Assembly (NCBI GenBank): GCA_021200975.1
Contig: JAJQFT010000099.1
Coordinates: 1-41,577, forward strand
Reading direction: 5' to 3'
Source: Bacillota bacterium
GTDB taxonomy: Bacteria; Bacillota; Clostridia; Oscillospirales; Oscillospiraceae
Length of the DNA stretch: 41,577 nucleotides
The translations under genes were made by a program, and so were the position numbers. Positions 5,079-22,944 of the stretch are shown here, piece after piece. Below the pieces are notes generated by a model. It saw only the letters and a list, made by a program, of their open reading frames with translations, was not told the origin of the DNA and ran no database searches. Numbering within the stretch: position 1 is the stretch's first letter; every line of letters starts with the position of its first letter.

Positions 5079-6251
5079 CTAGATTCTTGCCACGCCGGAG
5101 CGTCTGGCAGCTTCCGCCACGGCCTTCGCCACCGCGGGCCCCACTCTCGGGTCGAAGGCGGCAGGGATGATATAGTCGGCGGACAGCTCGTCGTCGGAAA
5201 TCAGGCCGGCGAGAGCCTCGGCGGCGGCCATTTTCATTTCCTCATTGATGTCGCGGGCGCGAACATCGAACGCGCCCCGGAAAATGCCGGGGAAGGCCAG
5301 CACATTATTGATTTGGTTGGGATAGTCGCTGCGCCCGGTAGATACCACCTTCGCGCCGCCCGCCTTGGCCTCATCCGGGAAAATCTCGGGAATCGGGTTG
5401 GCGCAGGCGAAGATGATAGCGTCGCGGTTCATGGTTTCCACCATTTCCTTGGTCACCTGTCCGGGAGCGGACACGCCAATGAACACATCCGCGCCCCTGA
5501 TCTGCTCCGCCAGCGTGCCGGGCTTTCTGGAGAGGTTGGTGACCTGCGCCATCTCCTCCTTGATCCAGTTCAGCCTTTCGCGCCCGCTGTAAATCGCGCC
5601 GCTGCGGTCGCACATGGTGATATCCCGGAAGCCAGCGGAGAGCAGCAGCTTGACGATAGCAATCGCCGCCGCGCCCGCGCCGGAGGTGACAATCTTTACC
5701 TCCTCCTTCTTCTTGCCCACGACCTTCAGCGCGTTCGTCAGCCCGGCGAGGGTGATCACAGCCGTGCCATGCTGGTCGTCATGGAAAACGGGAATATCGC
5801 ACTTTTCCTTGAGCTTGCGCTCAATCTCAAAGCAGCGCGGCGCAGAAATATCCTCCAGATTGATTCCGCCGAAGCTGCCGGAAATCAGATAGACCGCATT
5901 GACAAATTCATCCACATCCTTGGTTTTGATGCACAGCGGGAAGGCATCCACCTGCCCGAAGGCCTTGAACAGGACACACTTGCCCTCCATGACCGGCATT
6001 CCCGCCTCGGGCCCGATATCGCCCAGCCCCAGCACGGCGCTGCCATCGGTGATGACCGCGCACAGATTGTGCCGCCGCGTCAGGTCGTAGGAGCGGCTGG
6101 GATCCTTTTGGATTTCCAGGCAGGGCTGCGCCACGCCGGGGGTATAGGCCAGCGCCAAATCGTCCCGCGTGGACACCGGCACCGTGGGGTTGATTTCGAT
6201 TTTGCCCTTCCACTGGCCGTGCAGGCGCAGGGATTCTTCTGCATAGTTCAT
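5079..6251 (-). CDS. NAD(P)-dependent malic enzyme (oxaloacetate-decarboxylating malate dehydrogenase)
   Basis: The 390-residue product has the length of short bacterial malic enzymes. Near the N-terminus it has TPGVAQPCLEI; then the substrate and metal region ITDGSAVLGLGDIGPEAGMP and FPLCIKTKDVDEFV; IPVFHDDQHGTAVI, the classic malic enzyme signature; and a Rossmann segment IVTSGAGAAAIAIVKLL. It catalyses L-malate plus NAD(P)+ to pyruvate, CO2 and NAD(P)H in the cytoplasm. It starts 12 bases after the transketolase C-subunit, with GGAGG upstream, and is the last gene of the long minus-strand run. Its place next to a LarA racemase suggests that it consumes L-malate made from D-malate in the proposed inositol route. 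A general anaplerotic or NADPH-forming role is the alternative. Confidence 0.93.
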   Translation of the reverse strand: MNYAEESLRLHGQWKGKIEINPTVPVSTRDDLALAYTPGVAQPCLEIQKDPSRSYDLTRRHNLCAVITDGSAVLGLGDIGPEAGMPVMEGKCVLFKAFGQVDAFPLCIKTKDVDEFVNAVYLISGSFGGINLEDISAPRCFEIERKLKEKCDIPVFHDDQHGTAVITLAGLTNALKVVGKKKEEVKIVTSGAGAAAIAIVKLLLSAGFRDITMCDRSGAIYSGRERLNWIKEEMAQVTNLSRKPGTLAEQIRGADVFIGVSAPGQVTKEMVETMNRDAIIFACANPIPEIFPDEAKAGGAKVVSTGRSDYPNQINNVLAFPGIFRGAFDVRARDINEEMKMAAAEALAGLISDDELSADYIIPAAFDPRVGPAVAKAVAEAARRSGVARI

Positions 6252-6263
6252 AAGCTTCCTCCT

Positions 6264-7205
6264 TTATTTGCCCAGCTTTTCCCTGACCACCCGGGCGATA
6301 TGCTCGTCCGTCAGGTCAAAGCGATCGCGCAGGTAATCCTGCGGCCCGACCTCGCCGAAGCAATCCTCGATAGCGACATAGCCTACTCTCGCCTCGCCAT
6401 CCAGGCATTCCTTGACGGCGCTGTACAGCCCGCCGATTTTGTTGTGATTCTCCGCCGTGACAAGCACGCCGGTTTTCCGGGCATACTGCCGAACCAGCTC
6501 CTCATCAAGCGGCTTAATGGAGAAAATGTCAATTACGCAGGCGGAAATACCCTCCTGCTCCAGCTTCTGCGCCGCCTGCAGGGCCTCGTGCACCATGATG
6601 CCGCAGGCGATGATGGTCGCGTCGGCGCCCTCGCGCAGGACGATGCCCTTGCCGAAGGTGAAGTGCGTGCCCTCCGCGTAGACTTGGTAGGATTCCTTAC
6701 GGGGCACGCGGAAATACTTCACGCCGGGGATATCCTTCGCCTGATGCAGAATGTCCACCAGCATGGGCACATCGGTGACATCCACGATTTTCGCTCCGGG
6801 CAGGGCGCGGTAGAGCGCCACATCCTCAAAGGGCATGTGCGTCCCGCCGTTGAAGGCGGCGGTGATCCCCGGGTCGGTGCCCACCACGGTGACGCTATTG
6901 CCGGCATAGCCGCCGGAGAGGAAAATCTGGTCGTAAGCCCGGCGGGAAACAAAGGGCGCAAAGGAATGGACATATGGCTTCCAGCCTACGGCGCTCATAC
7001 CGCAGGCGACGCCGACCATATTGGCCTCCGCCACGCCGCAGTTGATGACCCGCGGACTATGAACGGCGCTTACGCCGCTGCACGACTGCAGGTCCGCGTC
7101 CAGCCAGACCACATTTTCGTCCTCGTCCAGGAGCTGCTGCATGGTCTTTCCAATCATGGCCTTGAATTGGCGGGAATCCTTGCGCCCGGTATACACGATT
7201 TTCAT
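6264..7205 (-). CDS. Transketolase, C-terminal subunit of a split enzyme
   Basis: The 313-residue product covers the pyrimidine-binding and C-terminal domains of transketolase. CGVAEANMVGVACGMSAVG contains the catalytic glutamate that activates thiamine diphosphate. SFAPFVSRRAYDQIF, GGTHMPFEDVALYRALPG (with the conserved histidine) and the C-terminal TAENHNKIGGL follow. Its ATG overlaps the stop of the N-subunit gene by four bases, so the two chains should be made in equal amounts. Transketolase moves a two-carbon ketol group between sugars. Context (iolEBDG, GAPDH-like, PGK-like, LarA, malic enzyme) suggests the donor may be 2-deoxy-5-keto-D-gluconate rather than a sugar phosphate. That is inference; a pentose-phosphate role is the null hypothesis. 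Confidence 0.9.
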   Translation of the reverse strand: MKIVYTGRKDSRQFKAMIGKTMQQLLDEDENVVWLDADLQSCSGVSAVHSPRVINCGVAEANMVGVACGMSAVGWKPYVHSFAPFVSRRAYDQIFLSGGYAGNSVTVVGTDPGITAAFNGGTHMPFEDVALYRALPGAKIVDVTDVPMLVDILHQAKDIPGVKYFRVPRKESYQVYAEGTHFTFGKGIVLREGADATIIACGIMVHEALQAAQKLEQEGISACVIDIFSIKPLDEELVRQYARKTGVLVTAENHNKIGGLYSAVKECLDGEARVGYVAIEDCFGEVGPQDYLRDRFDLTDEHIARVVREKLGK

Positions 7206-8050
7206 ATTCCGCCTCCCTGCGCTTCCAGTGCGCTCAGCTGCGTGCGAAGCTCCTCCAGCCAGCGGTCAAAGACCTCGGCGCTTACGTTCATGGAGTGGTT
7301 GCTCACGGTCTGCTCCACCTGCGTAACGCCCTTGCCCTTGATATTGTCCATCACGATGGCGATCGGCCGATCGGAGGTCTTGGTAAGCGCATCATATAGC
7401 TGCGCGACGTCGTGGCCGTCGATTTGGACTGCCTCGAAGCCGAAGGCTTCAAATTTCGCCCGGATGTCAAACGGCTCGAGAATATCGCTTACATAGCCGT
7501 CGAGCTGCTTCTTGTTCCAGTCGATCAGCCATGTCATATTGTTTACGTTTTTTCCGGCGGCAAACATGGCCGCCTCCCATACCTGCCCCTCGTTCAGCTC
7601 GCCGTCGCCTACAATCAGGTAGGTGCGGCTGCTCCTGCCCTTGAGCTTGTCGCCATAGGCCATCCCCACGGCAAGGGACGTTCCCTGCCCCAGAGAGCCG
7701 GTGGTCATGTCCACGCCCGGGGTGAGCCTGCGGTCGCAGTGGGAGGGCAGGTGCGTGCCCGGCTGATTGAGGGTATAGAGCATATCATAGGGCATATAGC
7801 CCTTCAGTGCCAGCGTGGCGTACACGGCCGGGCCGGCGTGCCCCTTGGAGCATACGAGCTTATCGCGCTCCTCCCATTGGGGATTGCGCGGGTCGATTCG
7901 CATCACCTTCCCATACAGCACCGCCAGCGCGTCCACCACCGACAGGCTCCCGCCAATATGGCCGAAGCCGCGCGATTTCACGCATTCGACGGTGCCGATA
8001 CGAATCCGCAGGGCAAAGCTTTGCAGCTCCCGTTTTTCCTGATCCGTCAT
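7202..8050 (-). CDS. Transketolase, N-terminal (thiamine diphosphate-binding) subunit of a split enzyme
   Basis: The start is the ATG at 8048-8050 (MTDQEKRELQSFALRIRIGT), with AGGAGG upstream and a four-base ATGA overlap with the larA-like stop. The 282-residue chain has the typical split-transketolase N-subunit size. It shows HIGGSLSVVDALAVLYG, GHAGPAVYATLALKGY, TGSLGQGTSLAVGMAYGDKL and the thiamine diphosphate/Mg motif GDGELNEGQVWEAAMFA ending in IDWNKKQLDG. It pairs with the next gene. Divided transketolases are common in Clostridia and archaea and in specialised routes. The translational coupling to a racemase on one side and to its partner subunit on the other indicates a dedicated pathway enzyme rather than the housekeeping copy. 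Confidence 0.9.
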   Translation of the reverse strand: MTDQEKRELQSFALRIRIGTVECVKSRGFGHIGGSLSVVDALAVLYGKVMRIDPRNPQWEERDKLVCSKGHAGPAVYATLALKGYMPYDMLYTLNQPGTHLPSHCDRRLTPGVDMTTGSLGQGTSLAVGMAYGDKLKGRSSRTYLIVGDGELNEGQVWEAAMFAAGKNVNNMTWLIDWNKKQLDGYVSDILEPFDIRAKFEAFGFEAVQIDGHDVAQLYDALTKTSDRPIAIVMDNIKGKGVTQVEQTVSNHSMNVSAEVFDRWLEELRTQLSALEAQGGGI

Positions 8051-9312
8051 GATTGATCCTCCTGTTGTTCTGCAATTGGCAGGGTCGCCCCGCCGAAGGG
8101 CATGGCAATCACGGTAGCGCACGCCCCGTATTTCTCCATTGCCCGGTCGAAGGCGGCCTGCGCGCTGGGCTGGGGATTGAGGAAGATGCTGCGCACAAGG
8201 CTCTCATCCATCTCGCTGACCAGGTCGATCGACGCGTCCTCCAAAACCATCGCAATGGCCGCCGCCTTGTGACCGCCGAGCTGAAAATCTCTGTGAACGC
8301 GCTCTATCAGCGAATGCGCCGTGGGCGCCTCGGTGAGCCACTCGGCAAATACGCCGCTGCCCAGCCCCTCCTGGCACGCGCCAATCAGGATAATGGTGCC
8401 GCCCTTTTTTACGGCGTGCTTGGCATTGTCAAGCGCCTTCTGGGTCTGGTAAAGGTTGGCATCCTTCGGCGCGCCTCCCTGCGAAACCAGCACGATATCC
8501 GCCCGCTGCCGGATTGGCTTGCGGTACATTTTATCCAGATACGCGCAGCCGACACGGTGCGCCCGAACCACATCCCCCGCCACGGCATAGACAATGTGCT
8601 TATGCTCGTCGAGCACCACATTGACAAGGTAATCCAGCCCGACGATTCTGCCCGCCTGCTCGATATCCTCCCGAATGGGGTTGCCCTCCAGCTTCCCGGC
8701 GCGCGCCTCGGGGCGAATCATCATGCGGTGGTTCGCCTGAATGGCCTCCGGCGTGGAAACGCCAGGCATCAGCGCCTTTGCGCCGCCGGAATAGCCGGCA
8801 AAATAGTGAAATTCAATATTCCCCGTGCAGATTCGGAAATCCGCCTGCGCCACGACCCGGGTGATGTCCACCGGCGTACCGCAGTCAGTAACGCCCATAC
8901 GAACGCAGTCCTCCGGGTCGCTGTCCACGCAGCGCACGCGGGAATATACCTCACTGCCCACGAGCCTCTCGCGCTCGCGCGGGGTATGCGCGCGGTGCGA
9001 GCCGAGGCCGAATACCACCGTGACATCCTCCGCCCGGCAGCCGGCGGCAAAAAGCTCCTCCAGCAGCGGCGGCAGGATTTCATAGCTGGGAACGGGACGG
9101 GAAATATCGCTGACGAGAATCGCCACCCGCTGCCCGGGACGCACCTTCCGGCGCAGCGGAATGTCGCCGATAGGGTTTGCAAGTGCGTAGCGAACCGCCT
9201 CCTCGCCCCGGCGGGCGTGCTCCATGGGATTGGCAGTAAGCACCGCCTGCAAATTCCCGTCAGGGATCTGCACAGTCTGCACGCCCTCGCCGTAGCCGAA
9301 TTCGACGATCAT
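8047..9312 (-). CDS. larA: LarA-family nickel-dependent 2-hydroxyacid racemase (proposed malate racemase)
   Basis: The 421-residue product shows LarA features in order: SDISRPVPSYEILPPLLEEL, GLGSHRAHT (the GTHR-type nickel-region histidine), and EFHYFAGYSGGAKALMPG followed by ANH. These supply the His, Lys and His expected to bind and carry the nickel-pincer nucleotide cofactor. LarA interconverts D- and L-lactate; homologues act on malate, 2-hydroxyglutarate, phenyllactate or sugar acids. Both ends overlap neighbours by four bases (PGK-like upstream, transketolase N downstream). Here I infer D-malate to L-malate, because the proposed upstream chemistry yields the D form and malic enzyme needs the L form. 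The cofactor-maturation genes larB, larC and larE are not in the window. Confidence 0.88.
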   Translation of the reverse strand: MIVEFGYGEGVQTVQIPDGNLQAVLTANPMEHARRGEEAVRYALANPIGDIPLRRKVRPGQRVAILVSDISRPVPSYEILPPLLEELFAAGCRAEDVTVVFGLGSHRAHTPRERERLVGSEVYSRVRCVDSDPEDCVRMGVTDCGTPVDITRVVAQADFRICTGNIEFHYFAGYSGGAKALMPGVSTPEAIQANHRMMIRPEARAGKLEGNPIREDIEQAGRIVGLDYLVNVVLDEHKHIVYAVAGDVVRAHRVGCAYLDKMYRKPIRQRADIVLVSQGGAPKDANLYQTQKALDNAKHAVKKGGTIILIGACQEGLGSGVFAEWLTEAPTAHSLIERVHRDFQLGGHKAAAIAMVLEDASIDLVSEMDESLVRSIFLNPQPSAQAAFDRAMEKYGACATVIAMPFGGATLPIAEQQEDQS

Positions 9313-10571
9313 GCCGCGTCCCCTCCGAATTTATCGCAGGCATAGCGCAGCGCCTTGACGACGGGCAGCTCCTCCCCGGTCAGGAAGCGAATGAGCGCCC
9401 CGCCGCCGGTGCATACATAGCCCAGACGATCCTTGACGTGGTACTGGTCCGCGGCGGTCACGCTGTCGCCGCCGCCGACGACGGTGAAGCCCTTCGCATC
9501 CGCCAGCGCCTCAAAGACCACGCGGGTACCAAGCTCTGTCTGCGGCACTTCAAACACGCCCATCGGCCCATTGACGAACACCGTTCCGGAGGACAAAATC
9601 GTCTCGCGATAGCGATGCGCGGTTTCCGAGCCGATGTCCAGCACGGTCGCGTCAGCGGGAAGCTGCCCAACCGGGCATTCCGCCCGCTCTCCCCCGGCAA
9701 GGTAGGCAAGGTCTGTGGGCAGGGCGATGCGGGAGCCGTATTTCTCCCGGATTCCCCTCGCCTTCTCGATATACTCGCCGTAGCCGCTCTCTTGAATAAA
9801 GTCCATGCTTCCCTGCCCGATGGGCTCGCCCGCGGCGGCAAGAAGGATATTCGCCACCAGCCCGCCGGTGAGCACCCGATCCGCCGCGCCGCTGCCGAGG
9901 ACGGTTTCCATCATCAAAAAGGCGTCGGCGATTTTTGCGCCGCCCAATACATAGGTGCATGGGTGCGCCGGGCTTTCCATCAGCTCCGAAATGACGCAGT
10001 ATTCCTTCTCAAACAGCCGCCCCATGGCCGAGGGAAGCACCTGCTCGAAGCCGCACAGGCTGGGTTGATCCCGGTGCGCGGCGGCGAAGGCATCGCATAC
10101 ATACAGGTCGGCCAGCGGCGCGAGCTTCTCCACCAGCAGGGTCTTCGCCTGCTGGGCATGGCTCAGGCGCAGCTTCTTCTCGAACAGGGTCTGCTCCTCC
10201 GATACGAAGCGCACATTGTCCAGCAGCAGCACCTCGCCCTCGCCCAGGGCGCGGATGGCCTCCCTCGCGGCGGGGCCGCAGACATCGTCGAGCCATTTTA
10301 CCTCCTGCCCCAGAAGCTCGCTGAGCACCTTGGCATGGGGGCGGGTGCAGTAAAAATTCTGGTATTCAATGTCGCTCCCCTGATGTGCCAGCAGCACCAC
10401 CTTTGCACGCTTCTGCACCAGCTCGCGGATGGTGGGCACGCAGGCGGTGATTCTTGCGATGCTTTTCAGGCTATCGGTCGCGCGGTCTACCGGCTGATTC
10501 ATATCCACCCGGCAGAGCACCGTCTTCCCCGCCAGAAAAAAGTCATCTAGTGTACAAATTCCAAATCGCAT
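9309..10571 (-). CDS. Phosphoglycerate kinase homologue, probably with a changed substrate
   Basis: The start MRFGICTLDDF (ATG at 10569-10571) is preferred over the ATG six bases upstream because GAGGG then stands six bases away. The 420-residue product has the PGK fold markers: CRVDMNQPVD, LLLDNVRF, YVCDAFAAAHR, LGGAKIADAFLMMETVL, NGPMGVFE, and the nucleotide motifs VVGGGDSVTAADQ and CTGGGALIRFLTG. At the 3-phosphoglycerate site the usual SHLGRP reads AHQGSD, so the histidine is kept but the phosphate-binding arginine is replaced by serine. PGK transfers the phosphate of an acyl phosphate to ADP. Next to a type II GAPDH and LarA, I infer a malyl-phosphate kinase making ATP and D-malate. An ordinary second PGK is the alternative. 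Confidence 0.85.
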   Translation of the reverse strand: MRFGICTLDDFFLAGKTVLCRVDMNQPVDRATDSLKSIARITACVPTIRELVQKRAKVVLLAHQGSDIEYQNFYCTRPHAKVLSELLGQEVKWLDDVCGPAAREAIRALGEGEVLLLDNVRFVSEEQTLFEKKLRLSHAQQAKTLLVEKLAPLADLYVCDAFAAAHRDQPSLCGFEQVLPSAMGRLFEKEYCVISELMESPAHPCTYVLGGAKIADAFLMMETVLGSGAADRVLTGGLVANILLAAAGEPIGQGSMDFIQESGYGEYIEKARGIREKYGSRIALPTDLAYLAGGERAECPVGQLPADATVLDIGSETAHRYRETILSSGTVFVNGPMGVFEVPQTELGTRVVFEALADAKGFTVVGGGDSVTAADQYHVKDRLGYVCTGGGALIRFLTGEELPVVKALRYACDKFGGDAA

Positions 10572-10617
10572 ATCCATCCCTCACGAAAGGCGCGGCCGCA
10601 GCCGCAAGCCGGCTTCC

Positions 10618-11679
10618 TTATGATTTCTTAAACCTGCCGATTCCCAAATAGCGGTTAGTCATCGCCGTTCCCTCTTCGCGTGTCAGCTGCATACGCATGG
10701 CCGCGCGGATGGCGTCCATCGTTTCGGGAATGGTGACGGACTCCTGGGGAATATTGATGGCGTACATAATGTCGTTGCCGGACTCCACGATGGAATCCTC
10801 CCAGAGCGCAATCTCGTACATATCGCCGCGGCGGTTGCCCAAGTCGCGCGCGTATTTGAACAGGCTGGCGTTGCCCTTGAAGCCCTCGTCGATGGACACC
10901 ACCCGGATGCGGGGGTGCTTCTGGAAAGCGGCCAGCGCCTGCTCCTTTGTGATTTTCCTGCCGTCCCGCGCGGTGGCGAGTACGGTGATGATATGCCCGT
11001 GGGTCACCGGGGTATGCACCAGAATGCCCGTGGCGTCCACATGGGGCATAATGGTCATCAAATCCAGCGCCTGATGGGAGGGTGCCTTCTCCATTTGCAG
11101 GGCGTTGGTCAGCCCGCGGTGATAATCGCCGGGGTCAGCCACGCGGCGGATGATGGTGATGGCCACCTTTTCAATGCCGAATTCCCGGTCGAGGCAATCG
11201 ACGCTGCGAATCAGGCCGGTGGTATTGCAGGAGGTCAGCTTCAGGTAATCCTGCCCCAAGCCCTTCTCGTAGTTGGCATAGCCGTGGAAAAACACATCGG
11301 CTACGCTGTTCTTTTCGCCGCCCTGGAAAATGGCCTTCACGCCGTATTTTTCATAGTAATTCGCCTTGTTCTTCGCGCCGACGCCGCCGGGGGCGGAGTC
11401 GAGCATGATATCCACCTTCTGGCACAGCTCGTCGAAGCTGCCGGCGACGGGAATATCCTTCGCTTCGAAGGCGGCGGAGTCTGCTCCGTCCACCAGATAC
11501 AGGTTGTACTTCACGCCGTTGGCGCCAATCATGTCGTTTTCCCGAAGCGCCTGAATGGAGAGCGTGGGCGCGAGGTCGGCAATGCCGACAAGCTCCATAT
11601 CTCCCTGCAGCGCCACGCCGTCCGCCAAGCGCTGCCCGATGGTGCCGTATCCGGCGACACCTACTTTAATCTTTGCCAT
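10618..11679 (-). CDS. Type II (archaeal-type) glyceraldehyde-3-phosphate dehydrogenase homologue
   Basis: The start MAKIKVGVAGYGTIG (ATG at 11677-11679) has AAGGAGG upstream and gives 353 residues. The N-terminal Rossmann motif is VAGYGTIGQRLADGVALQ. The catalytic cysteine lies in SCNTTGLIRSV, followed by IIRRVADPGDYHRG and APSHQALDLMTIMP, which match the SCNTTGL and RRAADP motifs of the archaeal type II family rather than bacterial GapA. The family converts an aldehyde, phosphate and NAD(P)+ into an acyl phosphate. It is 40-50 bases from the PGK homologue, so the two probably act in sequence. I infer that D-malic semialdehyde, with a carboxylate where GAP has a phosphate, is the true substrate. 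Ordinary GAP oxidation is possible. Confidence 0.87.
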   Translation of the reverse strand: MAKIKVGVAGYGTIGQRLADGVALQGDMELVGIADLAPTLSIQALRENDMIGANGVKYNLYLVDGADSAAFEAKDIPVAGSFDELCQKVDIMLDSAPGGVGAKNKANYYEKYGVKAIFQGGEKNSVADVFFHGYANYEKGLGQDYLKLTSCNTTGLIRSVDCLDREFGIEKVAITIIRRVADPGDYHRGLTNALQMEKAPSHQALDLMTIMPHVDATGILVHTPVTHGHIITVLATARDGRKITKEQALAAFQKHPRIRVVSIDEGFKGNASLFKYARDLGNRRGDMYEIALWEDSIVESGNDIMYAINIPQESVTIPETMDAIRAAMRMQLTREEGTAMTNRYLGIGRFKKS

Positions 11680-11718
11680 ACTGTTTTTCCTCCTTAGCTT
11701 TCTTGGGAAGTTCTGAAT

Positions 11719-11736
11719 CAACCGCCAGAGCGGTTG
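11719..11736 (-). other. Intercistronic hairpin between iolG and the GAPDH homologue
   Basis: A 7-bp stem (CAACCGC with GCGGTTG, four-base loop) lies in the 69-base gap. No T run follows, so it is more likely an mRNA processing or stability element separating the iol part from the GAPDH-to-malic-enzyme part than a full terminator. Confidence 0.4.
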
Positions 11737-11748
11737 GATTCGGAGCTT

Positions 11749-12789
11749 CTATTGGTACATTTCCGGTTTTTCCATGGTGTTTACCTTGTAGAATTGGGAC
11801 GTACCGCGGGAGGCGTTCAGGGCATCTCCCGCCACGCAGGCCACATAGCCATCCCACGCAGACGGGCCGGTGAGCTTCCCGCCGCAGTTGATGGACTCCG
11901 CCCATTTGCACAGCTCGATGTCGTAGGCCTCGATGAAGCGCTCCTTCCAGTCGGTCATGATGGGCATACTCTCGGCGGGGTTCCCGCTCTCCCAGCCGGC
12001 GGGGCGGCTGCGCCGCACCACAGCATAGGGATCGGGCAGCTTCACCGTGCCGTTTTCGCACACCACCTCGCACTGGATGTCGTAGCCATAGCCATCGGCC
12101 ACCTGAACCTCCACATCGATGAAGCAGCCGTTCTTCGTGCGCATCAGCATCACCTGCGGATTGTCGTAGCCCTTGTTGGAATTGGCGCTCTGCCGAACCC
12201 TTACGCACTGCACATCCTCGTATTCCTCGCCCAGCAGCCAGCGGCAGATATCCAGCTCGTGAATGGCCACGTTGGTAACGCCGTTCTCCGTCTTAAAGCC
12301 GGGGCCTTGGCTGACATTGCGGTGGCAGGCCTTAATCAGCAGCGGGCGGCCAAGCTCGCCGGAATCGATGATGCGCTTCATCTCGGCATAGCCCCGGTCG
12401 TAGCGGCGCATAAAGCCCACCTGCACCAGCCGCTTCCCGATTTCCAGCTCCTTGCGGATAATTTCCTCGCAGTCCGCCGCATTCTGGGACAGGGGCTTCT
12501 CGCAGAAGCACCATTTCCTTTCCGCCAGCACCTTCATCACATAGTCGTGATGGGTCGGGTCGATGGAGGTAATCAGCACCGCCTCCACCTCCGGGTCGCG
12601 GATCATACCGTCGCAGTCACTGCCATAGGAGCGAATGCCGTAGCGCTCCGCCGTAGCGTCCGCAGCGGCGGCGGCATAGTCGGATACGGCCACCACCGTC
12701 GCGCCGGGAACCGTTTCCATGATGCGGCGGCAGTGATCCTTGCCGATTGCGCCGCAGCCGATAATGCCCACTTTCAAGACTTTCTCCAT
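11749..12789 (-). CDS. iolG: Inositol 2-dehydrogenase (Gfo/Idh/MocA family)
   Basis: The start MEKVLKVGIIGCGAIG (ATG at 12787-12789) has AGAGGG upstream; the longer frame would overlap iolD. The 346-residue product has the NAD-binding motif GIIGCGAIGKDH, the CEKPLSQ motif with the catalytic lysine, and the IHELDICRWL motif with the Asp/His pair typical of IolG-like enzymes. IolG oxidises myo-inositol to scyllo-inosose with NAD+. The gene follows iolE, iolB and iolD on the same strand, which supports inositol over other Gfo/Idh substrates. It could also accept scyllo- or D-chiro-inositol. It is the last standard iol gene before the GAPDH-PGK-LarA-transketolase-malic enzyme block. Confidence 0.85.
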   Translation of the reverse strand: MEKVLKVGIIGCGAIGKDHCRRIMETVPGATVVAVSDYAAAAADATAERYGIRSYGSDCDGMIRDPEVEAVLITSIDPTHHDYVMKVLAERKWCFCEKPLSQNAADCEEIIRKELEIGKRLVQVGFMRRYDRGYAEMKRIIDSGELGRPLLIKACHRNVSQGPGFKTENGVTNVAIHELDICRWLLGEEYEDVQCVRVRQSANSNKGYDNPQVMLMRTKNGCFIDVEVQVADGYGYDIQCEVVCENGTVKLPDPYAVVRRSRPAGWESGNPAESMPIMTDWKERFIEAYDIELCKWAESINCGGKLTGPSAWDGYVACVAGDALNASRGTSQFYKVNTMEKPEMYQ

Positions 12790-12805
12790 GATTGCATCCC
12801 TCTTT

Positions 12806-14734
12806 TTAATATTTTCTCGCATCCTTCAGGTGCGCAATATGCTCCTCGTAGGCTGCCAGGTTCTCTGGCCGCTTGGAAACCTCGGTATCGCCCACACGCC
12901 ACCACGAGCCATAGCCGTCGGTCATGGTTTTCGGCAGCACCTTGATATCCAGCAGCACCGGGCGGCCCCGGACGAGCTTGGCCTCCTCCATCGCGTGAAC
13001 CAGCTCCTGCATGGTGCGCACGGTATAGGCCTTGCAGCCATATGCCTCCGCCACCGCGGCATAATGGATATCCATAAAGCTTCCGCGCAGCCCCTCGGCA
13101 TCCCGATAGCGCAGCTCCGTGCAGAGCGTTTCGTTCCCGTGGCCGACCTGCAAATTGTTAATGCAGCCGAAGGAGGCATTGTCGAACACGCAGATGTTGA
13201 TTTTCTTGCCCTCCTGCGCCGCGGTGATCAGCTCGCTGTGGAGCATATTGAAGCTGCCGTCGCCGCAGAAGGCATAGACCTCGTGCGCATCGCCCACGGC
13301 CAGCTTCGCCCCCAGCGCGCCCGCGACCTCGTAGCCCATCGTGGAATAGCCGTACTCCATGTTGTAGGTGTCCTTCCCGGTGGGGCGGAACATTCGCTGC
13401 ATATCCCCGGGCAGGGAGCCTGCCGCGCCAACCGCCACGTCGCCCGGCTCCATCATGGCGTTGATTTTACCCAGCGCCTCCACCTGCGTCAGCGCGGCGT
13501 TCAAATCCTCCGCGAAGCGCTGCACGCTGCCCTCGTTGGCATCGCGCACCAGCGGCCGCCAGCCCGGCTCTGGGGAATAGGTGAAGTGGTCGAGCCGCTC
13601 CAGTTCCGCCATCCATTCCTTTTTGGCAGCTTCGGGCTCGCCGCAGTAGCAGCTGTGGTAGCCCTCCAGCAGTGCCTGCAGGCGGGGCAGTGCCTCCTTG
13701 GCGTCGGCCACTACCGGCACGGCATCCATTTTCAGGCTCTGGAACTCCGAGACATTGATATTGACGAAGCGGCAGTCCTCGCGGTAGAGCCACTTCGAGG
13801 AGGTTGTGAAATCCGTGTAGCGTGTGCCGACGCCGATGACCACATCCGCCATCTTTCCAATCTCGTTGGCGGCGGAGCAGCCGGTCACACCGATGCCGCC
13901 CAGATTCAGCGGGTGACGCCAATCCACCGCCGACTTGCCCGCCTGCGTCTCGGCAAAGGGAATATCGAAGGCCTCGGCAAAGCGCCGGAATTCCTCATGT
14001 GCCTCGGAATAGCGCACGCCGCCGCCGCAGATAAGCAGCGGATGCTTAGCGCCGCGAATCACCTCCGCCGCCCGCCGGAGCGCTTCCTCCGTGGCGGGGC
14101 GGCGCTCCAGATGCCAGACGCGCTTGGCAAGGAAGGAAGCTGGATAATCATAGGCCTCCCCCTCCACATCCTGCGGCAGGGCGATGCACACCGCGCCGGT
14201 GTTGGCCGGGTCGGTGAGGGTGCGCATGGCGCTGAGCATAGCGCTCATAAGCTGCTCCGGCCGCACAATCCTGTCCCAGTAGCGGCACACCGCCTTAAAG
14301 GCATCGTTGGTGGAGATGGAGAGATTGTGGATCTGCTCCACCTGCTGCAGCACCGGGTCGGGCTGACGGCAGGCGTAGGTATCGCCCGGCAGCACCAGCA
14401 GGGGGATATTGTTGGCGGTGGCGGTGCCGCAGGCCGTTACCATGTTGGCCGCGCCGGGGCCGATGGAAGAGGTAACGGCAAAAATCTGCTTGCGCTTTTT
14501 CTGCTTTGCGAAGGCGACGGCCGCCTGCGCCATCCCCTGCTCGTTTTTCCCCTGATAGATTTCCAGCCGCCTGCCCTCCTGCTGCAGCGCCTGCCCCAAG
14601 CCGACCACGTTGCCGTGCCCGGGGATGATGAACACGCCGCGCACGAAGGGCGTCTGCTCGCCGTCCACCTCGAGATATTGGTTTTCCAGAAAGCGCACCA
14701 GCGCCTGCGCCATCGTTAAGCGTTCGGTTTTCAT
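12806..14734 (-). CDS. iolD: 3D-(3,5/4)-trihydroxycyclohexane-1,2-dione hydrolase
   Basis: The 642-residue thiamine diphosphate enzyme resembles the acetolactate synthase superfamily. It opens with RLTMAQALVRFLENQYLEVDG and FIIPGHGNVVGLGQAL, as IolD does, and keeps the cofactor motif CGDGSFNMLHSELITAAQ with NASFGCINNLQ. IolD opens the six-membered ring of the diketo-inositol to give 5-deoxy-D-glucuronate, the committing step of inositol breakdown. It begins six bases after iolB with GGAG upstream, and ends 16 bases before iolG. Length and motif order fit full-length IolD with no breaks seen. Confidence 0.95.
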   Translation of the reverse strand: MKTERLTMAQALVRFLENQYLEVDGEQTPFVRGVFIIPGHGNVVGLGQALQQEGRRLEIYQGKNEQGMAQAAVAFAKQKKRKQIFAVTSSIGPGAANMVTACGTATANNIPLLVLPGDTYACRQPDPVLQQVEQIHNLSISTNDAFKAVCRYWDRIVRPEQLMSAMLSAMRTLTDPANTGAVCIALPQDVEGEAYDYPASFLAKRVWHLERRPATEEALRRAAEVIRGAKHPLLICGGGVRYSEAHEEFRRFAEAFDIPFAETQAGKSAVDWRHPLNLGGIGVTGCSAANEIGKMADVVIGVGTRYTDFTTSSKWLYREDCRFVNINVSEFQSLKMDAVPVVADAKEALPRLQALLEGYHSCYCGEPEAAKKEWMAELERLDHFTYSPEPGWRPLVRDANEGSVQRFAEDLNAALTQVEALGKINAMMEPGDVAVGAAGSLPGDMQRMFRPTGKDTYNMEYGYSTMGYEVAGALGAKLAVGDAHEVYAFCGDGSFNMLHSELITAAQEGKKINICVFDNASFGCINNLQVGHGNETLCTELRYRDAEGLRGSFMDIHYAAVAEAYGCKAYTVRTMQELVHAMEEAKLVRGRPVLLDIKVLPKTMTDGYGSWWRVGDTEVSKRPENLAAYEEHIAHLKDARKY

Positions 14735-14740
14735 GCTCGC

Positions 14741-15550
14741 TTACTCCTTTCCGTTGGGATAAATGTGGGCGTTAGCATCGCTTCTCCACAGCCATGCGTG
14801 CTCCGGGTCGTCGATGCGGGTCTTTTTCCACGGGTCGCCGGGCAAATGCCGGATGCCCCACGCATAGCACATGGCGTAGCCGGGCGCGGCGGTTTGGGAG
14901 TGGAAGCCGTGGTTGATCACGGCGCAGCCATTGTGCCCGGTTTGATAGATTTCGCCGTTGGCGAAGCCCGCACCGAAGCCGCAGGGATGGTCGAAGCGGT
15001 AGAAGTACACCTCCGGCTGCGGATGGTGATGCGGCGGGTAGGACGACCATTTCCCCGGCAGATTCAGCACCTCGCCGAGCACCATATTGGAAAACGGCGC
15101 GTTGTCGTAGTCAAAAAAGGTCTTGATCTCCCGCTCCATACAGCCCATCAGCTCCCCGCCGTTGCCGGCGTGCTGGGTCTGAACTGTTTTCGGCGTGTAC
15201 AGCACCGGGGCATAATCGCGCTCGTTGCGCGTCGCCTGCACATACAGCTCGCTGTGGCAGCGGGCGGTAAGGGTAATGCGCGTCCTCCTCGGCGCCAGCA
15301 GGCAGTAGGCCTCGTGGTGGAAGCAATCCGGGCGCTGCGCCTCGACGGCCTCCGCGTTCCATTCGTAGCGCACGCTGCCGCTGAACAGGAGAATGGCGAC
15401 CTCCTTCTCCTCGCTTTCGTAGACATAGGTATCCCCCGCCTCCATCAGCAGCAGCCCTACATCCATCTGGGTGCCCATATCGTCGCTCGCGGCGTCAATA
15501 TAGGCGTTATAGCCGTTGGTCAATTCCGAATTTTTAGAAAAATAGCTCAT
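14741..15550 (-). CDS. iolB: 5-deoxy-glucuronate isomerase
   Basis: The 269-residue product is a KduI/IolB-type bicupin. The metal site is visible as SYPPHHHPQPEVYFYRF (histidines plus glutamate), with a further histidine later in VINHGFHSQTAAPG. IolB converts 5-deoxy-D-glucuronate to 2-deoxy-5-keto-D-gluconate (DKG). It starts three bases after the iolE stop with a weak ribosome site, so translation is likely coupled. DKG is normally phosphorylated by IolC and cleaved by IolJ; neither gene is in the window. This makes the fate of the IolB product the key question for the locus. Confidence 0.93.
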   Translation of the reverse strand: MSYFSKNSELTNGYNAYIDAASDDMGTQMDVGLLLMEAGDTYVYESEEKEVAILLFSGSVRYEWNAEAVEAQRPDCFHHEAYCLLAPRRTRITLTARCHSELYVQATRNERDYAPVLYTPKTVQTQHAGNGGELMGCMEREIKTFFDYDNAPFSNMVLGEVLNLPGKWSSYPPHHHPQPEVYFYRFDHPCGFGAGFANGEIYQTGHNGCAVINHGFHSQTAAPGYAMCYAWGIRHLPGDPWKKTRIDDPEHAWLWRSDANAHIYPNGKE

Positions 15551-15553
15551 TTT

Positions 15554-16453
15554 TTACAACCCCGTATGCTCCCGAATGTATTTGCGCGCCTTGATGGCGT
15601 ATTCCAGCGGGTCGGCAAGCGCCGGATCCTGCTCCGCCTCCACCAGCAGCCAGCCGGTGTAGCCGGCCTCCGCCAGCGCCGCGAAAACCGGGTCGAAATC
15701 CACATCCCCGTCGCCAGGCACGGTGAATGCGCCATTGCGGACAGCCTGCAGGAAGCTCCACCGGTTTTCCCTTGCCTTGGCAACCACGTCCAGCCGCATA
15801 TCCTTCAGATGAACGTGCCCAATCCGGCCGGCATATTTCTTCAGCATGGCCAGCGGGTCCTCCCCGGCGAAGGTAAAGTGGCCGGTATCGTAGCACAGGA
15901 AAACATAACGCTCGTCGGTATGGGCCATCATGCGGTCTGTTTCCTCGCTGGTCTGCACCACGGTGCCCATGTGATGATGATAGCACAGGCGGAAGCCACG
16001 GTCGCTGGCGAGAGCGCCAAGGCGATTGAGCCCGTCGCAGAAGCGATCCCATTGCCGGTCGTCCATCACCGGCTTGTGCGCGCCGGTCAGCACCGGCACA
16101 TCCTTGCCCTGAATCGAGCCGCTCTGCTCGCTCACATTGATGCGATTGGCGCCCACGGCCGCGAGAAAATCCAGATTGGCAAGGAAATCCGCCGCCTCCT
16201 CCTCAAAGGGGCGGGTAAGGAGGAAGGAGGAATACCAGCGGCTGGCAATGCGCATTCCCCGCATCTGGAGCGCCTTTTTCAAAACCGCGGGATCCTTGGG
16301 ATATTTGTTGCCAATCTCGCAGCCGGTAAATCCGGCCAGCGCCATTTCGCTGACGGTCTGCCGGAAGGTATTCTCCGCCCCCAGCTCCGGCATATCGTCG
16401 TTGCACCAGCCGATGGGCGCAATGCCCAGAAAAACCTTCTCTTTATCGAACAT
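15554..16453 (-). CDS. iolE: Inosose dehydratase (TIM-barrel isomerase-like family)
   Basis: The 299-residue product begins KVFLGIAPIGWCNDDMPELG, the typical IolE opening, and has the metal-binding TIM-barrel segments CEIGNKYPKD, LCYHHHMGTV, YDTGHFTFAGEDP and HVHLKDMRLDVV. IolE dehydrates scyllo-inosose to the diketone used by IolD. AGGAGG lies five bases before the start. It heads the iolE-iolB-iolD-iolG block and stands 47 bases after a GH43 gene, with no visible terminator between them, so the inositol genes are probably co-transcribed with the hydrolases. Confidence 0.93.
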   Translation of the reverse strand: MFDKEKVFLGIAPIGWCNDDMPELGAENTFRQTVSEMALAGFTGCEIGNKYPKDPAVLKKALQMRGMRIASRWYSSFLLTRPFEEEAADFLANLDFLAAVGANRINVSEQSGSIQGKDVPVLTGAHKPVMDDRQWDRFCDGLNRLGALASDRGFRLCYHHHMGTVVQTSEETDRMMAHTDERYVFLCYDTGHFTFAGEDPLAMLKKYAGRIGHVHLKDMRLDVVAKARENRWSFLQAVRNGAFTVPGDGDVDFDPVFAALAEAGYTGWLLVEAEQDPALADPLEYAIKARKYIREHTGL

Positions 16454-21978: not shown

Positions 21979-21982
<4 letters not shown>

Positions 21983-22944
21983 AGTATGCGATTCCTCCTA
22001 TGGCACTCCAGCATCGCGGCGCCCAATAGCCCCGCGTCGTTGCCAAGCTGTGCCAGTACAATTTTGGTGTTTTTTTCTGCGTTTTTTGAGTAGACCATCG
22101 GGTAGGTTTTCTCGCGCACCGGCGCAAGTAGCCGCTCCCCGGCATGGCTCACCCCGCCGCCAATGCAGAACACGGCAGGCTGAAAAAGATTGATTAGATT
22201 TGCGATGCCCTCCGCCAGATAGGTGGTATAGCAGTCAAGCAGCGCCGCGGCGGCGCAATCGCCCATCGCAGCGGCATCGAACACGATTTTTGCCTCCACC
22301 GCCTGCGCATCGCCGCCGCACAGCTCCCAAAGCAGTGTGTCGCCGCGCCGCGCCATGCAGTCCATCGCCTGCCGCCGCAGAGCGCTGGCGGAGGCGTAGG
22401 CCTCCCAGCATCCCCGCCTGCCGCAGGTGCAGGGCTCGCCGCCCATGCAAATGCTCATATGCCCAAATTCCGCAGCTGCGCCGTTGATCCCCGGCCAGAG
22501 CTTGCCGTCTAAGATAAGGCCGCCGCCGATGCCCGTGCCGATGGTCATCAGCGCGAAAGACTCCTCCCGGCCGCCGCCGGCGATATATTCACCCCATGCC
22601 GCCGCGTTGGCATCGTTGGCGAAGCCTACCGGCAGCTCCAGCGCCCGCTCCAGCAGCGGCAGGAAGGGCGCATCCGCGATACCCAGATTGTTGGCGTCCT
22701 CGATGTGGCCGTTTTCCGGGTTGGCCGTGCAGGGCACGCCGACGCCCACACCGCCAAGGCTCGCCATGGGCAGCGCGTTGCGCCGCGCCAAGAGGCGCAC
22801 CAGCTGCGCCATATCCTCCACCAGCGCCTCCACCGGCCGGGGCGCGCGGGTTTTCACGCTGCACCGATCCACGATGTGCAGCCTCTCGTCCACCAGCGCG
22901 GCGGCGATGTTGGTGCCGCCAAGGTCAATTCCAATGCGAAGCAT
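21979..22944 (-). CDS. ROK family sugar kinase
   Basis: The 321-residue product has the phosphate loop GIDLGGTNIAAALVDE, ATP and sugar motifs LMTIGTGIGGGLILDG and AAEFGHMSIC, and the ROK zinc motif CTCGRRGCWE. ROK kinases phosphorylate glucose, fructose, mannose, N-acetylmannosamine or N-acetylglucosamine in the cytoplasm. It starts 14 bases after GH38 and overlaps the next gene by four bases. Given the adjacent alpha-mannosidase and the YihS-like isomerase on the other strand, mannose or fructose is a reasonable guess at substrate, but sequence does not settle it. Confidence 0.88.

Follow-up and report, generated by a model that had tools for sequence, protein, structure and literature searches.

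In the classical inositol pathway of Bacillus subtilis (IolG, IolE, IolD, IolB, IolC, IolJ and IolA), 2-deoxy-5-keto-D-gluconate (DKG) is formed by IolG, IolE, IolD and IolB; DKG is then phosphorylated by IolC and cut by IolJ between C3 and C4 into dihydroxyacetone phosphate and malonate semialdehyde, as summarized in the part of PMC8355322 consulted here. The locus described below lies on a 41,577-nucleotide stretch (contig JAJQFT010000099.1 of the Oscillospiraceae assembly GCA_021200975.1; the whole stretch is referred to as the window) and consists of ten tightly packed minus-strand genes running from 16453 to 5079. It shares the steps up to DKG with B. subtilis and, by the same portion of PMC8355322, with a variant from Anaerostipes rhamnosivorans. 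Unlike the classical route, that of the window lacks IolC, and the cut is predicted at C4–C5 with D-malic semialdehyde as the product. Judged from sequence comparison, the operon probably encodes an inositol fermentation with transketolase cleavage of unphosphorylated DKG. This pathway was first put forward in a preliminary description of the window and is supported by the comparative evidence.

A literature search in which few subscription journals and preprints were covered returned no paper in which inositol degradation was linked to a transketolase cut or to malate; the transketolase–malate route for inositol looks unpublished, as had been supposed. Within this search PMC12130570 was the one paper with iolD, iolE and a transketolase, and in the part consulted the transketolase belongs to another context. 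Missing core iol genes were ascribed to assembly or frameshift faults in a survey (PMC9430895, in the sections seen), and in a 2026 study 21 of 40 isolates, from other genera, grew on myo-inositol without a recognized cluster, for which an unidentified pathway was proposed (PMC12838507, in extract).

Operon layout and proposed route

Within the assembly (1.89 Mb in 123 contigs, 97.6% complete, 0.02% contaminated) the window corresponds to contig C7. The ten open reading frames (ORFs) are uninterrupted and are separated by −17 to +40 bases, an operon-like spacing, with 4-base overlaps at the phosphoglycerate kinase (PGK)/LarA, LarA/transketolase N and transketolase N/transketolase C junctions. 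The order iolE–iolB–iolD–iolG–GAPDH–PGK–LarA–transketolase N–transketolase C–malic enzyme (GAPDH, glyceraldehyde-3-phosphate dehydrogenase) was borne out by the ORFs, and the Pfam and NCBIfam families of all ten products agree with the names originally assigned.

DKG is predicted to be formed by the first four products. The inosose dehydratase IolE (15554..16453) scored 406.9 bits with NCBIfam TIGR04379 (cut-off 290) and the trihydroxycyclohexanedione hydrolase IolD (12806..14734) scored 873.5 bits with TIGR04377 (cut-off 715). The 5-deoxy-glucuronate isomerase IolB (14741..15550) is divergent, with 157.6 bits for Pfam KduI/IolB and 95.7 bits for NCBIfam IolB, below the cut-off of 205; confusion between IolB and KduI was considered and rejected, the other KduI match of the genome being on contig C99 among other genes. 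The inositol 2-dehydrogenase IolG (11749..12822) gave 365.3 bits with NF052679, below the cut-off of 540, and the solved structures that it matches best belong to inositol 2-dehydrogenases (307.7 bits).

Carbons 5 and 6 of DKG would then be transferred to glyceraldehyde-3-phosphate by a split transketolase, yielding xylulose-5-phosphate and D-malic semialdehyde. Its N-terminal, thiamine diphosphate (ThDP) half (7202..8050) matched Pfam Transketolase_N with 140.7 bits, over cut-off, and is closest among solved structures to 6yak (228.4 bits); the start at ATG 8050, which is preceded by a Shine–Dalgarno-like AGGAGG, is more likely than GTG 8122, the start proposed earlier. The C-terminal half (6264..7205), with the motif KSFDR, matched Pfam Transket_pyr and, over cut-off, Transketolase_C. 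By hand reasoning the configuration at glucose C3 and C4 survives IolD and IolB, so that DKG has the fructose-like D-threo pair required by transketolase. Re-derivation by hand also upheld the D-malate stereochemistry claimed at first: a cut at C4–C5 leaves a D ((R)) hydroxyl, oxidation then yields (R)-malate, and the presence of a racemase ahead of malic enzyme is thereby explained.

D-Malic semialdehyde corresponds to D-glyceraldehyde-3-phosphate in which a carboxylate stands for the phosphate ester. The type II GAPDH homologue (10618..11721; NF003251, 394.9 bits, cut-off 185), a putative phosphorylating D-malic semialdehyde dehydrogenase with a TTG start and an alternative ATG 42 bases inward, would oxidize it to D-malyl phosphate at the expense of NAD(P)+ and phosphate. 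The PGK homologue (9309..10577; PF00162, 371 bits; 38% identical to the other PGK of the genome) would act as a D-malyl phosphate:ADP kinase, giving D-malate and ATP. D-Malate would be turned into L-malate by LarA (8047..9312), a LarAH6-type nickel-pincer malate racemase (NF052593, 548.9 bits, cut-off 500; closest solved structure the malate racemase Mar2, 405.9 bits) of a family whose function was shown elsewhere, and L-malate into pyruvate, CO2 and NAD(P)H by malic enzyme (5079..6251; Pfam malic and Malic_M, both over cut-off; closest solved structure the NAD-dependent malic enzyme 5cee, 452.9 bits), in keeping with the function of its family. Xylulose-5-phosphate would re-enter the pentose phosphate pathway, the acceptor being regenerated. 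Calculated by hand and with pyruvate use not counted, three inositols would give 5 pyruvate, 3 CO2, 11 NAD(P)H and 5 ATP. The malate semialdehyde of a synthetic malyl phosphate route is reportedly the other regioisomer.

The absence of iolC, noted at first for the window, extends to the whole genome, in which no protein exceeded the IolC cut-off (best TIGR04382 score 198.8, cut-off 300). Four PfkB proteins are present; the top IolC scorer gave 238.6 with the fructokinase model, which is below that cut-off too. As for IolA, the malonate-semialdehyde dehydrogenase, Pfam showed no aldehyde dehydrogenase among the ten genes. Other contigs of the genome encode two class II aldolases, members of a multifunctional family that may include an IolJ: the first stayed under one fructose-bisphosphate aldolase model (491 bits, cut-off 511) and passed TIGR01859 (350, cut-off 343), and the second was under the equivalog cut-offs among the scores listed. 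In a genome without a DKG kinase IolJ, even if present, has no substrate. The aldolase and split transketolase on contig C24 were rejected as an IolJ route; their neighbours, judged from sequence starts, are FGGY-like kinase, SDR, RpiB-like and PHP genes and not iol genes.

With two class II aldolases, four PfkB kinases and a ROK kinase upstream (21979-22944), the GAPDH, PGK and transketolase might be taken for spare glycolytic and pentose-phosphate isozymes that handle the triose phosphate which an unrecognized kinase and an aldolase encoded elsewhere would produce from DKG. This is very improbable: LarA and malic enzyme would be left without a role, the genome has canonical PGK and split transketolase genes besides these, and the phosphate-contact residues of PGK and transketolase are lost in every relative examined. 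The idea that DKG is phosphorylated by a hidden kinase of the ROK or PfkB family was rejected because none of the PfkB proteins is an IolC over cut-off and no ROK was found among the identified clusters common to at least three relative loci.

Active-site residues

In canonical transketolases the phosphate is oriented by an RSFHR motif, which reads RAFDR in sulfofructose transketolases (PMC11659671, in the sections consulted). The phosphate-orienting motif is KSFDR in the window and xxFDR in 54/54 relatives aligned; within the window's own genome, the second split transketolase, on contig C2, reads RAFHR, and the third one (C24) differs again. The catalytic Glu and the cofactor-adjacent His are kept.

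Residue numbers follow human PGK and Escherichia coli transketolase. After length filtering, 67 of the 71 PGK loci and 57 of the 60 LarA loci entered the residue counts. The equivalent of PGK Arg/Lys65 is Ser in 67/67 loci and, in the 12 genome copies, Asp in 11 and Ser in one. This basic-patch position, the second basic one of the 3-phosphoglycerate site (HxGR or HxGK motif), is occupied by Ser in the window and by Lys in the canonical PGK of the genome. Six further residues of that site, the equivalents of Asp23, Asn25, Arg38, His62, Arg122 and Arg170, are kept (gaps fall on Asp23 and Asn25 in two rows), as are the ATP-site motif residues. In GAPDH the catalytic Cys was found in 80/80 loci and 12/12 genome copies, an Arg pair and an Asp are invariant, and the SHH of four aligned archaeal chains reads SHQ, THQ or NHQ in 92/92. 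Sequence-family folds, the catalytic Cys and the ATP-site motif residues are thus shared with glycolytic GAPDH–PGK and archaeal type II GAPDH; unlike in the glycolytic pair, the substrate-site residues are changed in every relative examined, and a carboxylate is predicted to replace the phosphate ester.

A malate-type His–Lys rule for LarA has been published (PMC11770544, in the part seen). The catalytic residues and this pair were present in 66/66 LarA sequences (57/57 loci and 9/9 genome copies). The equivalog, the catalytic residues and the malate signature are shared with LarAH6/Mar2 of Thermoanaerobacterium thermosaccharolyticum, going by the portions of PMC7583248 and PMC11770544 available; no in vivo route is given in those portions, and neither main text contains the words 'inositol' and 'transketolase'. 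LarC, required for the nickel cofactor, gave one match in the window's own genome (468.9 bits) and was detected in 9/12 GAPDH genomes, the own one included. Taken together, the active-site changes fit substrates that are non-phosphorylated and carboxylate-tailed.

Module and IolC in related genomes

A GAPDH search of genome contigs yielded 436 relatives, mainly from Lachnospiraceae, Oscillospiraceae and further Clostridia of the rumen or gut, plus a few Spirochaetes and a single member of the Synergistaceae; the best 80, 83–92% identical, were kept. Among these best 80 of 436 loci PGK was found in 71, LarA in 60, the transketolase N half in 47, the C half in 50 and malic enzyme in 32, where the transketolase tallies take in a few E1-type genes and many loci end at a contig edge. 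The ORFs of the loci were clustered with a codon score to remove antisense ORFs. Four loci (L012, L016, L019 and L021) were left out of the transketolase counts, their neighbour being a thiamine-dependent E1_dh subunit (scored in L021 as the representative and assigned by clustering and BLAST in the other three).

At least one of IolB, IolD and IolE was encoded in 47/80 loci, and iol genes occurred in 28 of the 32 loci with at least 7 kb of flank on each side. These 28 contain PGK (27), LarA (27), the two transketolase halves (21 each) and malic enzyme (18). The co-occurrence of the five-enzyme set with iol genes anticipated in the preliminary description held; malic enzyme is not universal (18/28). 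Gene order varies between lineages, and the iol–module association thus survives rearrangement.

Malic enzyme is missing from 10/28 iol loci, and in L071 a tartrate dehydrogenase gene (12436-13497, over cut-off) directly follows GAPDH–PGK, replacing LarA and malic enzyme. Both observations would suit a route in which transketolase acts as proposed and the C4 product is used differently, D-malate being excreted or directly decarboxylated and LarA making D-malate from L-malate. Such a fate is hardly to be expected, given malic enzyme in the window and 18/28 iol loci and LarA in 27/28. The tartrate dehydrogenase family decarboxylates D-malate as a side activity, and the L071 gene was also counted in favour of the main reading, transketolase cleavage of DKG.

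Of the 391 genomes sampled from the class to which the window belongs, 28 encode an IolD that passes its cut-off. IolC was over cut-off in 11 of these 28, G057 adding one at 283 bits that adjoins IolD, and GAPDH was present in 12, with no overlap between the two sets; module and IolC thus behave as alternatives in this sample. With shared ancestry ignored, the hypergeometric chance of zero overlap is 2.0e-4 (11 vs 12) or 6.0e-5 (12 vs 12). Families f25 and f45 each show the same split internally. In 9/11 module genomes, counting the window's own, GAPDH shares a stretch with an iol gene; in G322 and G340 the two are on separate contigs.

Neither IolC nor GAPDH was found in four IolD genomes: G082 and three members of a single genus, G037, G065 and G093. 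In all four, and in G179, which is a GAPDH genome, a transaldolase homologue and an aldehyde dehydrogenase are encoded beside iolB, iolD and iolE (5/5 loci; L136 to L140 for G179, G037, G065, G093 and G082, respectively). By type, the 28 IolD genomes comprise 12 with the kinase, 11 with the transketolase module and five with the transaldolase. TAL_FSA was confirmed by Pfam in both transaldolase copies scanned, that of L140 scoring under the NCBIfam transaldolase cut-offs, and no transaldolase match was found in the other 15 fetched loci; this look-up beside IolD covered the genomes other than those with IolC. The aldehyde dehydrogenase is of two types, MMSDH (584.9, cut-off 448.5) and the acylating sulfoacetaldehyde dehydrogenase family (602.6, cut-off 600). 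Sulfoacetaldehyde corresponds to malonate semialdehyde with a sulfonate in the place of the carboxylate, and a transaldolase cut of DKG would leave malonate semialdehyde. Since all five loci hold a transaldolase and a semialdehyde dehydrogenase, the kinase–aldolase pair would have been replaced twice by a group transferase and a fitting dehydrogenase. Many gut and rumen bacteria seem, on the sequence evidence, to cleave inositol by transketolase, a remodelled glycolysis pair and a malate racemase, without the textbook kinase and aldolase.

Two further observations concern the surroundings of the iol clusters. Four tandem HAD phosphatases and a duplicated protein of the phosphoglycerate-mutase superfamily lie ~4–9 kb before GAPDH in iol clusters (L028, L029, L035, L046, L073, L076 and similar), with LacI, PHP and PfkB-like genes; with one representative per family scanned, they form a candidate set for inositol-phosphate dephosphorylation. 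Upstream of the operon, window positions 16501-37838 are a glycan-breakdown region with GH43, GH2, ROK, GH38, GH88, HAD and GH28-like genes, a 543-residue protein, an oligopeptide-type ABC transporter, an AraC regulator and an N-acetylglucosamine 2-epimerase. It may be speculated that the inositol comes from an inositol-bearing glycan, such as the head group of a plant inositol sphingolipid.

Other contexts and comparison with known systems

A second sample, of 297 genomes, was drawn from the spirochaete-group class to which G391, the source genome of L018, belongs; exclusion in this sample was judged from GAPDH, IolC and fetched loci. GAPDH was found in 16/297 and IolC in 16/297. IolD is encoded at 6/16 fetched GAPDH loci, and of those six genomes only G603 has IolC, on the same contig as the module (L182 with G603:C96:16374-17315). 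That contig carries IolC–IolE–IolD together with a complete GAPDH–PGK–transketolase–LarA–malic enzyme module.

Several results weigh against the proposed transketolase cleavage of DKG. Both IolC and GAPDH are present in 2/297 genomes of the second class (G603 and G689), compared with ~0.9 expected by chance, so that there is no depletion and exclusion is not universal; 10/16 GAPDH loci of this class are without IolD (one of them, L187, has IolB). Four of the 32 well-flanked loci (L016, L022, L053 and L071) have no iol genes. Transketolase is missing locally in 7/28 iol loci; an Asp-type split transketolase is encoded elsewhere in 11 of the 12 whole genomes whose locus is without it, and none was found in the twelfth, G397 (L034), on a search of the whole genome. 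Second Asp-type split transketolases, 41–46% identical to that of the window, occur in many genomes (L150 to L163, L166), and there is no evident reason why Asp in xxFDR suits an anionic substrate. LarC was not found in 3/12 GAPDH genomes; two of these, G098 and G270, have LarA without a LarC match though each is 96% complete. IolJ-like class II aldolases exist in the window's genome.

The tie of GAPDH–PGK to inositol, drawn at first without qualification, stands for 28/32 well-flanked loci; the pair also occurs elsewhere, and has other uses because the ten spirochaete-group loci above are without IolD. A homologue of the tagaturonate epimerase UxaE adjoins a GAPDH–PGK–transketolase module without iol genes at L022:14260-15627 and L126:9520-11055, L126 being a second module copy of G109. 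These loci may encode a transketolase route for hexuronates through tartrate, and tagaturonate would need epimerization to fructuronate before transketolase can use it, a possible reason for UxaE. In L176, L179 and L180 GAPDH–PGK lies beside an HpaI-type aldolase (assigned by a family scan of the L179 protein or by matching sequence starts), a racemase-like gene and a LacI regulator, without iol genes. The E1_dh gene adjoins the GAPDH homologue in L012, L016, L019 and L021, and L016 also has lipoyl- and flavoprotein-like genes, judged from sequence starts, making an E1–E2–E3-like set.

On the strength of the UxaE loci and of the tartrate dehydrogenase of L071, the module of the window might itself act on a different acid sugar, such as pectin-derived fructuronate, with the iol genes as mere neighbours: a tartaric semialdehyde left by transketolase would become tartrate through GAPDH–PGK, to be handled further by LarA and malic enzyme. 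The GH28, GH88 and GH43 genes in the window and the side activity of published malate racemases on tartrate point the same way. We nevertheless regard this as unlikely, as the module sits with iol genes in the window and in 28/32 well-flanked relatives, IolC is missing in the class sample exactly where the module is present, and the malate signature of LarA is invariant.

Cleavage of DKG by transketolase remains the preferred reading for the window. It is rather likely, as a joint proposition, that inositol cleavage is interchangeable in three ways (kinase and aldolase; transaldolase and malonate-semialdehyde dehydrogenase; or transketolase and a re-tooled, ATP-conserving GAPDH–PGK making D-malate) and that GAPDH–PGK is a transferable unit by which carboxylated aldehydes are oxidized with conservation of ATP, employed again with an HpaI-type aldolase, with UxaE and transketolase and with an E1–E2–E3-type complex. 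If so, many rumen and gut Clostridia would ferment a common dietary compound, also released from phytate, by a route that IolC-based surveys can miss or misread, with malate and pyruvate instead of malonate semialdehyde as products; LarAH6 malate racemases would gain an in vivo role, and glycolytic ATP-forming chemistry would have been transferred to a new substrate.

Seen in this way, inositol cleavage seems to come in kinase–aldolase, transaldolase and transketolase forms, like the cleavage of sulfoquinovose. The comparison draws on the sections of PMC11659671 consulted. The logic of the sulfo-TAL pathway described there fits the transaldolase-type iol clusters and not the type of the window. 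The sulfo-TK pathway (SqwGH) resembles the window in its split transketolase and in the reaction, which for the window is predicted: an unphosphorylated 2-ketose with an acid tail donates its ketol unit, and xylulose-5-phosphate is formed. The change of His to Asp in the headgroup-orienting motif is common to both. The sulfo-TK pathway differs in that the predicted substrate of the window is a carboxylate and not a sulfonate, and in that sulfo-TK proceeds by isomerization and a second transketolase step, whereas a single transketolase step followed by ATP-forming oxidation to malate is predicted here. By analogy, the sulfo-TK pathway is the closest mechanistic parallel of the pathway proposed for the window.

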